Shown: piece after piece, positions 7,690 to 54,025 of the stretch
How the letters are laid out: each line of letters begins with the position of its first letter
Position numbering within the stretch: position 1 is the first letter of the stretch
Source: an uncultured Roseburia sp.
Lineage (GTDB): Bacteria; Bacillota; Clostridia; Lachnospirales; Lachnospiraceae
Length of the DNA stretch: 64,000 nt
Direction: 5' to 3'
Assembly (NCBI GenBank): GCA_946002055.1
Contig: CAMFYL010000002.1
Coordinates: 78,014-142,013, forward strand
Position numbers and translations under genes: made by a program
The notes under the pieces: model-generated
Told to the model about the DNA's origin: nothing
The model's input: only the letters and a program-made list of their open reading frames with translations
Database searches by the model: none

Positions 7690-8175
7690 ATGGCTTTAAG
7701 ACAAATTAGAATTCAGGGAGACGAGGTTTTAGAAAAGGTATGTCGACCAGTGGAGAAAATATCTCCTCGAATCGCCACCTTGATTGAGGATATGATTGAG
7801 ACTATGTATGAAAATGACGGTGTTGGGCTGGCTGCACCTCAGGTGGGTGTACTTCGCCGCATCGCTGTTATTGACGTGGGAGAAGGACCAATTATTTTGA
7901 TAAACCCAGAGGTTCTTGAAACATCAGGCTCTCAGACCGGCGAAGAGGGATGCCTTTCTCTTCCGGGAAAAGCAGGACAGGTAACTCGCCCGAACTATGC
8001 TAAGGTTCGGGCCTTTGACGAAAACATGCAGGAATACGAAATCGAAGGGGAAGAACTTTTAGCGAGAGCCTTGTTACACGAGATTGACCATTTGGACGGT
8101 CATATGTATACAGAATTAGTAGAAGGTCCTATTCACGATGTGACCTATGAGGTGGAGGAAGAAGAGTGCGAGTAG
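7690..8175 (+). CDS. def: Peptide deformylase
   Basis: GVGLAAPQVG, EEGCLSLPG, LLHEIDHLDGHMY. Confidence 0.96.
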   Translation: MALRQIRIQGDEVLEKVCRPVEKISPRIATLIEDMIETMYENDGVGLAAPQVGVLRRIAVIDVGEGPIILINPEVLETSGSQTGEEGCLSLPGKAGQVTRPNYAKVRAFDENMQEYEIEGEELLARALLHEIDHLDGHMYTELVEGPIHDVTYEVEEEECE

Positions 8176-9116
8176 TTTTTATGGGAACACCTGATTTTGC
8201 AGTGGAGACGGTAGATGCCATCGCAAAGGCAGGCCATGAGATTGTATTGGTGGTAACACAACCGGATAAGCCCAAGGGCAGAGGAAAGGAGATTTCTTTC
8301 CCACCCGTAAAGGAGTGGGCAGTTGAGAGAAATATTCCTGTATTTCAGCCAATGAAGATTCGGGAGCCGGAGGCCATCGAAACCTTGAAAAAGTATGATG
8401 CGGATATTTTTGTGGTGGCTGCCTTCGGTCAGATTTTGCCAAAGGAAATTTTGGATATGCCACCTCTTGGATGTGTGAATGTTCACGCATCCCTGCTTCC
8501 AAAGTATCGCGGAGCAGCTCCGATTCAGTGGGCAGTGATTAACGGTGATAAGGTCAGCGGCGTCACCACAATGCAGATGGGTGTAGGCCTTGACGACGGG
8601 GATATGCTCCTAAAACAGGAAGTGGTATTGTCAGAAGATGAGACAGGAGGAAGTCTCTTTGACCGCTTGGCAAAGGTTGGTGGAGAGCTTATCCTTCGCA
8701 CCATGGAAGGACTTGAGGCCGGAAATATCATCCCTGTTCCACAAAATGAAGCAGAGGCAACCCACGTGGGTATGATTAAAAAAAGTCTTGGACAGCTGGA
8801 TTTTTCAGAAGAAGCTATGGTTTTGGAACGAAAAATCCGTGGTTTGAATCCATGGCCAAGTGCATATACTAAGCTTGGCAACAAAACCTTAAAGGTTTGG
8901 TGGGCAAGGGTGGAATCCTCCTTACCTGACGGTGCTGCAGCAGACAACGTAGAATCCGGCACCATTTGTCTTGCAGATCAATCCGGCATCTGGGTATCAA
9001 CCGGCAAGGATTACTTGGTTCTGGAGGAAATTCAACTGGAAGGCAAAAAACGCATGAATGTGGCCGACTTCCTTCGGGGCAGAAATTTAGATGTGGGAAC
9101 CAAATTGGGCGAGTAA
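8166..9116 (+). CDS. fmt: Methionyl-tRNA formyltransferase
   Basis: MRVVFMGTPDFAVETV, VNVHASLLPKYRGAAPIQWAVINGD, NPWPSAYT. Confidence 0.97.
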   Translation: MRVVFMGTPDFAVETVDAIAKAGHEIVLVVTQPDKPKGRGKEISFPPVKEWAVERNIPVFQPMKIREPEAIETLKKYDADIFVVAAFGQILPKEILDMPPLGCVNVHASLLPKYRGAAPIQWAVINGDKVSGVTTMQMGVGLDDGDMLLKQEVVLSEDETGGSLFDRLAKVGGELILRTMEGLEAGNIIPVPQNEAEATHVGMIKKSLGQLDFSEEAMVLERKIRGLNPWPSAYTKLGNKTLKVWWARVESSLPDGAAADNVESGTICLADQSGIWVSTGKDYLVLEEIQLEGKKRMNVADFLRGRNLDVGTKLGE

Positions 9117-9156
9117 GTCTTCACAGAAATAACATAATTAAATCTTATAAACATGA

Positions 9157-9394
9157 GTTGTGTGGTGTGAATCTTCGGATTTTAGGGTACTTCTGACGTA
9201 GACACAGCGCAAGGAGTAACATATTTCTATGCAAGGGTACTTCTGGCGCGGTCGGTACTTAGCTGGTGCGCAAGCAACAGGTTAGTACCGCTACCAGCGT
9301 CCAGGTAGCGCAAGCGTGCCCGGCATGGAAATATGTTAGCTCCTTGCGCTATAGAAGTAGCGTGCCCTGAAATATTAATTCCACACTACACAAC
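9157..9394. repeat. Outer foldback element of a nested pair (family 'GGGTACTT/AGCGTGCCC')
   Basis: Arms GTTGTGTGGTGTG(-)AAT...TTTTAGGGTACTTCT pair with AGAAGTAGCGTGCCCTGAAA...ATTCCACACTACACAAC. It encloses the element at 9206-9350. Confidence 0.7.
9206..9350. repeat. Inner foldback element, copy A
   Basis: Arms AGCGCAAGGAGTAACATATTTC / GAAATATGTTAGCTCCTTGCGCT around core GGGTACTTCTGGCGCGGTCGGTACTTAGC...TAGTACCGCTACCAGCGTCCAGGTAGCGCAAGCGTGCCC. Confidence 0.8.
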
Positions 9395-9421
9395 AGTTAT
9401 TTTTTTAATGTAAAAGGAGAT

Positions 9422-10141
9422 ATGGCAATGTACGGTGGATATTATGGGTTTTATTGGGACCCAACGTATTTTATGGTGGTAATTGGAGCAATCATTTGTC
9501 TGATTGCATCCGCTAGAGTAAAGAGCACCTTTAACCGGTTTGATAAGGTGAGAAGCTATTCCGGATTGACAGGGGCACAGGCTGCAGAGAGAATGCTTCA
9601 GATGTCCGGCATTTATGATGTTAAGGTGGGACATGTGAGAGGCAATTTGACGGATCATTATAATCCGAAGACAAAGACATTAAATTTGTCGGATAGTGTG
9701 TACAATTCTACCAGCGTGGCAGCCATTGGTGTGGCGGCTCATGAGTGCGGACATGCCATTCAACATCAGAAGGGGTATGCGCCACTTCAGCTTCGAAGTG
9801 CCATTGTCCCGGTGGCAAATATTGGCTCCACCTTGGCGTGGCCTTTGATTTTGGTGGGATTGCTTTTTAACAGTGCTACAGGTTCTCTTTTGATTTCCAT
9901 TGGTATTTGGGCATTTTCCTTGGCGGTGCTTTTCCAGTTGGTGACACTTCCGGTGGAGTTTAATGCCTCGGCCAGAGCAGTGAATTTTTTGGATAGCACC
10001 GGAATGCTTTCCCAGGAAGAGTTGCATGGCACAAAGAAGGTGCTGAAGGCGGCAGCTCTTACCTATGTTGCTAGTGCCGCAGCGGCAATTTTGCAGCTCC
10101 TTCGTCTTGTATTGTTATTTGGAGGAAGAGATCGTGACTGA
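9422..10141 (+). CDS. Zinc metallopeptidase, YugP-like family
   Basis: AAHECGHAIQHQKGY (HExxH), multi-TM, ARAVNFLDSTGMLSQEEL. Confidence 0.9.
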   Translation: MAMYGGYYGFYWDPTYFMVVIGAIICLIASARVKSTFNRFDKVRSYSGLTGAQAAERMLQMSGIYDVKVGHVRGNLTDHYNPKTKTLNLSDSVYNSTSVAAIGVAAHECGHAIQHQKGYAPLQLRSAIVPVANIGSTLAWPLILVGLLFNSATGSLLISIGIWAFSLAVLFQLVTLPVEFNASARAVNFLDSTGMLSQEELHGTKKVLKAAALTYVASAAAAILQLLRLVLLFGGRDRD

Positions 10142-38887: not shown

Positions 38888-38903
38888 AAAACGCCTCTAT
38901 GTT

Positions 38904-38940
38904 CCGCTACCAGCGTCCGGGTAGCGAAAGCGTGCCCGGC
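38904..38940. repeat. Truncated member of the foldback family, copy C
   Basis: CCGCTACCAGCGTCCGGGTAGCGAAAGCGTGCCCGGC matches the 3' half of copies A and B; no left arm visible. Confidence 0.75.
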
Positions 38941-39114
38941 AGTGTGATGTATATCCCTATATCCTGGTATTAATCCACAAATGTGGCAATAATGCGTTAA
39001 TGCCCATAAAAGAAGGCTTTTTTTTTGCTTTTTTATGCAATGTTTTGGTTGAAAAGAGTCTGGGAATACTTTATTATAGTAAAGTGTAAAGTTGAATGGG
39101 AAGGAAGTATAGTT

Positions 39115-53809: not shown

Positions 53810-53846
53810 GGTGGTTTGCTACTTGGTTTTTAACGATGTAACATAA

Positions 53847-53991
53847 GTTGTACCCGGTAACTCTTCTGGATGTGGGGTACTTTGGTCGCGGTCGGTACTT
53901 ATGTGGTGCTTTGGCAGCACATTATGTACCGCTACCAGCGACCAGTAGCGAAAGCGTGCCCTACATGCAGAATGAGTTATCTGGGTGCAAC
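53847..53991. repeat. Foldback element, copy B, upstream of glyS
   Basis: Arms GTTGTACCCGGTAACTCTTCTGGATGT / ACATGCAGAATGAGTTATCTGGGTGCAAC around GGGTACTTTGGTCGCGGTCGGTACTTATG...ATGTACCGCTACCAGCGACCAGTAGCGAAAGCGTGCCC. Confidence 0.8.
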
Positions 53992-54025
53992 GTAGAGTAT
54001 ATATAGATAGAGAGAGGAAAAAGTT

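Follow-up and report, generated by a model that had tools for sequence, protein, structure and literature searches.

A new, MITE-like element family, whose RNA-like interior is unusually conserved, is present in nested form between fmt and yugP; nesting recurs in the family yet is secondary. We consider it probable that the fmt-yugP structure consists of nested copies of this one family, and that its structured interior has a leader-RNA processing role here for yugP. That the family is undescribed so far rests on Rfam 15 and on the accessible literature. In Rfam 15 (4227 families), no match at gathering score was obtained with the window (the whole stretch of 64,000 nucleotides that was analysed), with the element alone to E = 10, or with 20 diverse loci, and no account of such a repeat in Lachnospiraceae was found in a literature search whose scope lay outside most subscription journals. 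Plasmid and phage collections held no match to the one copy, from G113, with which they were searched.

Reading of the sequence confirmed the arms of two concentric hairpins in the fmt-yugP intergenic region, present as the initial annotation had described them. The outer arms are GTTGTGTGGTGTGAAT.../...ATTCCACACTACACAAC and the inner arms AGCGCAAGGAGTAACATATTTC / GAAATATGTTAGCTCCTTGCGCT; the motif GGGTACTTCTG occurs exactly at 9185-9195 and at 9235-9245, one per level, with no third occurrence in the window. The features are as follows:

8166-9116, + strand: fmt, the upstream gene
9156-9395, + strand: the nested structure in full, lying between fmt and yugP and oriented by the RNA model
9156-9195, + strand: 5' half of the outer copy, with foot AGTTGT, variable arm and GGGTACTTCTG, where the core breaks off
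9206-9350, + strand: inner copy, a complete ~145-nt element (model match 9205-9351, 131 bits, E = 3.6e-41)
9206-9232, + strand: left arm of the outer stem of the inner copy
9235-9321, + strand: conserved core of the inner copy, GGGTAC...GTGCCC
9307-9316, + strand: GNRA side hairpin of the inner core, AGC-GCAA-GCG (loop 9310-9313)
9324-9350, + strand: right arm of the inner copy
9353-9395, + strand: 3' half of the outer copy, with AGAAGTAGC(GNRA loop lost)GTGCCC, variable arm and foot ACAACA
9422-10141, + strand: yugP-like gene, directly downstream, with SD-like AAAGGAG at about 9413
38901-38941, + strand: decayed half copy; the same locus of G003 has a complete copy (L207)
53846-53992, + strand: second complete family copy in the window; the gene downstream of it was read as glycyl-tRNA synthetase

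Nothing is missing from the inner copy between A-G and C-T, and it abuts the remnant of the outer core, with neither a terminal repeat nor a target duplication at its edges. The feet and arms of the outer copy survive on both sides, as do GGGTACTTCTG and AGTAGC/GTGCCC; its central helices are gone, and so is its GNRA loop (AGCGNNAGCG reduced to AGCG). Because the outer copy has lost most of its core, the picture of one element sitting in the loop of another is too simple for this site. RNA folding of 9140-9400 yielded -124.3 kcal/mol, compared with -73.3 +/- 4.7 for shuffled sequences (n=200; z = -10.8), bearing out the expectation that the region would fold better than shuffled controls. Folding of the nested structure with DNA parameters gave z = -11.1, the inner element folded by itself z = -10.0, and the outer level minus the inner z = -5.8.

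Both levels belong to one element family, for which the window's own genome (G000) contains about 18 BLAST matches to the inner core. The covariance-model search that had been proposed returned 24 matches in G000, 19 in G003, 14-24 in each of G002, G012, G014, and G015, and fewer elsewhere. A broader model, with at most 10 matches scored per genome, found the family in 122 of 299 sampled genera (~40%) of the window's family, which gene content indicates to be probably Lachnospiraceae. Matches in a class-wide sample of 292 genomes were confined to eight, seven of them within the window's family and one, weak and partial, outside it. Two further Lachnospiraceae matches, to a 14-base pattern, were discarded as chance occurrences in coding sequence, the pattern being too short. 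The family is multi-copy, short, intergenic, and non-coding, as MITEs are, in genomes of MAG quality with genes called from ORFs only.

Several arrangements of neighboring copies were also recorded. All close copy pairs (under ~1.2 kb) among the matches listed are divergent (- then +), and lie at G012:C22 and C47; G015:C52, C85, and C126; G021:C1, C2, and C12; G045:C19; G280:C3 and C28; G226:C18; and G492:C11. The idea of paired elements carrying a gene between them was dropped, no convincing gene being found in the spacers examined. At G015:C85 (L185:1641-2421), a tandem repeat of ~74 bp separates two element copies, and a TwoAYGGAY RNA (RF01731, 102.5 bits) lies near one copy in G012 (L184:1168-1331).

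The interior has a conserved fold. Sixteen complete copies, aligned as ~145-nt units, yielded a consensus of 53 pairs, 30 of which have compensatory changes. Its parts are a long outer stem of ~30 bp, GGGTAC/GTGCCC, a small GNRA hairpin, and an apical stem-loop, with an inner in-line helix CTTCTGGCG.../...CCAGGTAG and a helix CGGTAC...GTACCG; the family helix CGGTACTTA...TTAGTACCGCTACG is common to the copies. When 95 sequences from 10 genomes were aligned, 92.9% of pair cells were standard pairs (62% in shuffles), 52 of the 53 pairs had changes on both sides, and the covariation score was 0.74, compared with 0.20 for shuffles and at most 0.12 for slid pairings; this alignment was fitted to the structure, hence favors it, and includes three rows that are reverse-strand matches. 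The excess of compensatory change over both shuffles and slid pairings is that expected of a structured RNA. A plain DNA alignment of the arms, independent of the structure fit, contained 118 G.U mismatches and 61 A.C mismatches (p = 2e-5), and one strand is therefore read as RNA. Of 119 copies, 112 have a GNRA side loop. Further, six orthologous pairs from G000 and G003 show 23 double compensatory changes, relative to 3.2 expected (maximum 9) from independent change, an excess to which gene conversion between copies could contribute in part.

The cores within one genome are alike, whereas the arms differ from copy to copy but still pair. Arm sequence is kept between orthologous copies, and the arms therefore diverge with age under a pairing constraint; the upkeep of pairing would be explained either by selection or by repair in which one arm is corrected from the other. 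The initial annotation had noted that the arms are unrelated between levels, which is correct letter by letter but fails as a mark of two events: nearly every copy has its own arms round a shared core, so that a lack of relation between arms is not enough to establish two insertions. An origin of the variable arms by insertion into pre-existing hairpins was rejected because arm length is fixed in most copies and because, in G093, the arms belong to the amplified unit.

The family is mobile. At least 40 relatives of the query element, at 88-96% identity, are present in G093; they have the ends gTAACAGTTCAGCC...GGCTGAACTGTTAc, start with GTAACAG, and carry a palindrome extended to ~70 bp. Target duplications of 8 bp, with at least 7 of 8 flanking bases matching, were found at exactly one offset in 16 of 31 G093 elements. 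In four other genomes (G113, G170, G207, and G150), YAGGYRATTGCGAAAC repeats lie ~20-30 nt outside the palindrome, and 28 of 50 elements have duplications of 9-14 bp (controls: mean 1.2, maximum 4). Target duplications are also carried by short elements that have these terminal repeats and no interior (L378, L380, L381, and L414); the interior is therefore dispensable for movement. The terminal inverted repeats and target duplications that characterize MITEs are thus present in the family, and were not detected for the window copy. Only some G000 copies have terminal repeats (e.g., L013, L019, and L021), and target duplications at a fixed offset were absent from G000, G003, G012, G014, G015, and G002, as expected for old copies.

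The IS66 family has 5'-GTAA ends and 8-bp duplications. The G093 version of the element resembles it in beginning with GTAACAG and in its 8-bp duplications, a likeness drawn from ends and duplication length. The YAGGYRATTGCGAAAC ends and 9-14-bp duplications of the other genomes are unlike IS66. When transposases of two Pfam families, DUF772 and DDE_Tnp_1, were searched for in five and seven incomplete genomes, none had matching ends nearby; an autonomous relative sharing its ends is usual for a MITE, though not required of each one. The target duplications also argue, we infer, against an HUH mechanism of the kind that would make these elements REPs or REPINs, which are short hairpins with a conserved 5' tetranucleotide moved by a Y1/RAYT transposase.

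Comparison with sister genomes, as had been proposed, revealed the fmt-yugP junction with the element absent in five relatives (G001-G005). The metal-ATPase locus is full in G000, reduced to the feet and a single arm in G003, and empty in both G004 and G001; a second further locus has a remnant in G003 and is empty in G004. G000 and G003 have ten loci in common, with copies that are full, decayed, or rearranged. A separate observation concerns a core-deleted hairpin region (L262 and L214; G000:C1:41397-42479 and G003:C79) that is 99.6% identical over 1083 bp between two species with about 80% identity at the other loci they share, pointing to recent transfer or contamination.

Most copies in the window's genus are old and have no recognisable terminal repeats. 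The next gene is on the same strand for 29 of the 33 copies of G000 and G003 (p = 1e-5), a set that includes orthologs, so that its members are non-independent, and for which genes were called from ORFs only. A Shine-Dalgarno-like sequence usually follows soon after the element. This same-strand upstream placement suggests that the elements function, or are tolerated, as 5'-leader RNA. No such strand bias to the downstream gene was seen in G012, G002, G014, G015, or G093.

The initial annotation had proposed that one element inserted into the loop of another. A shared mobile family, empty sites, and other nested cases uphold this in part, but not as transposition of the inner copy: that copy is without terminal repeats and a target duplication of its own, which makes insertion only one of the ways in which the nesting could have come about; a later loss of its flanks, or an exchange between copies by recombination, would explain it as well. 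Among the other cases, L210 (G003) is a second element within the remains of a first, replacing most of it, and five copies of ~258 bp in G207 (L408-L412) carry an extra ~66-nt hairpin at differing core positions. The hairpin in L408-L412 is itself a second small hairpin element (..CTAAGCTCGG..CCTCGCTAAGT..), unrelated to its host copy and present in at least five copies. An unrelated multi-hairpin insert of ~150 nt was also seen at the base of the apical stem of L386 in G113 (L386:1500-1844; G113:C7:85654-85997), inside intact terminal repeats and target duplication. In G003, L206 (G003:C70:183-330) is chimeric, its left arm and flank being like those of L202 and its right arm coming from another copy; copies therefore act as recombination points.

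These cases bear on an origin of the nesting through recombination or template switching that involved two copies, with the shared GGGTACTTCTG and AGTAGCGTGCCC as homology, and not by transposition, a substantial possibility that falls somewhat short of being probable. The bare edges of the inner copy, the mismatched arms of the L206 chimera, the replacement of most of the first element in L210, and the frequency of core deletions between short repeats (L214-L216 and L413-L415) all favor such a route, but the product of a simple crossover at a common motif would be a single chimera and no concentric pair, so that at least two junctions are required. A different reading takes the interior to be mainly a DNA feature, a cruciform or single-strand hairpin recognised in transposition or replication, whose RNA look is incidental. 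The long perfect arms, the ~70-bp palindrome of G093, the DNA folding z = -11, and the frequent hairpin-type deletions that leave feet alone (L414 and L415) speak for it; we nevertheless think it unlikely, given that G.U is about twice as frequent as A.C in unbiased arm alignments, that the GNRA rule holds in 112 of 119 copies, that conserved U.G pairs occur in GGGUAC/GUGCCC, and that interior-less elements (L378, L380, L381, and L414) still have target duplications.

That we are dealing with a vertically inherited cis-regulatory RNA, riboswitch-like and only apparently repetitive, is very improbable and largely refuted. Strong covariation would suit it, as would the placement in leaders and the strand bias that the window's genus shows, but terminal repeats, target duplications, and empty orthologous sites do not, nor do the missing strand bias in other genera and the lack of an Rfam match. 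A riboswitch is expected to hold a steady position before functionally related genes; here the position is steady in one genus only, and the downstream genes, read as yugP, glyS, ksgA, truA, cbiM, mntP, and a metal ATPase, are unrelated. Integron attC sites were dropped by inspection, the feet being in the opposite sense and the core being the conserved part. More speculatively, the interior may be a selected functional RNA module that sits on different transposon chassis across the family (in one genus GTAACAG ends and duplications of 8 bp, in others YAGGYRATTGCGAAAC ends and duplications of 9-14 bp) and has repeatedly been adopted as a 5'-leader RNA, an extension that we offer tentatively.

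The NEMIS/Correia elements of Neisseria are intergenic mobile hairpins of ~100-160 bp near genes; their transcripts form long stem-loops, and RNase III-type control of neighboring mRNA has been proposed (PMC2229807). The new family likewise consists of small intergenic mobile hairpins near genes, but its interior is a three-way junction with a GNRA loop, kept over about 120 genera with variable arms, its terminal repeats and duplication lengths vary between genomes, and RNase III processing would apply to it by analogy. It shares its intergenic palindromic character with the enterobacterial ERIC/IRU/RU-1 repeats, which are co-transcribed with their neighbors and implicated in mRNA stability; the comparison is by description and not by sequence, and the description of ERIC/IRU/RU-1 gives their interior no junction fold with arms that are specific to each copy and compensate (PMC2229807). 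QMITE2 of Coxiella burnetii is non-autonomous, with terminal inverted repeats, duplications of 7-9 bp, and a structured transcript (PMC10969869). The new family agrees with QMITE2 and other bacterial MITEs in being non-autonomous and in having terminal inverted repeats and target duplications; it differs in a fold conserved family-wide inside differing terminal repeats, of which we found no mention for MITEs in that account (PMC10969869).

Under the favored reading, of nested MITE-like copies with a structured interior, the mobile unit is the ~220 bp seen in recent copies of other genera, namely terminal inverted repeats and a ~145-nt interior, probably moved by a transposase supplied in trans. 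The interior folds as RNA, on one strand, into an outer stem of ~30 bp, a junction that bears the GNRA hairpin, and a conserved helix topped by an apical stem-loop. At the fmt-yugP site, an interior that is still intact lies within another copy, the own core of the latter having been lost, by whichever route the inner copy may have entered. Terminal repeats are gone from most copies in the window's genus; these copies lie a few tens of nt upstream of a gene on the same strand and would presumably be transcribed in its 5' leader, here with yugP. By analogy with NEMIS and ERIC, the long stem may serve as a processing or stability element for the downstream gene, through RNase III-type cleavage.

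The interiors of MITEs are commonly taken as leftovers. In about 120 genera of a major family of gut bacteria, the ~145-nt interior described here has one and the same fold, in which mutations compensate each other, and the terminal repeats around it vary by genome. Strong covariation is by itself no proof of a riboswitch. A large repeat family was missing from the catalogue, and its description would be useful for annotation. If selection acts on the interior RNA, then either (i) the transposon needs it, or (ii) hosts have adopted it many times.
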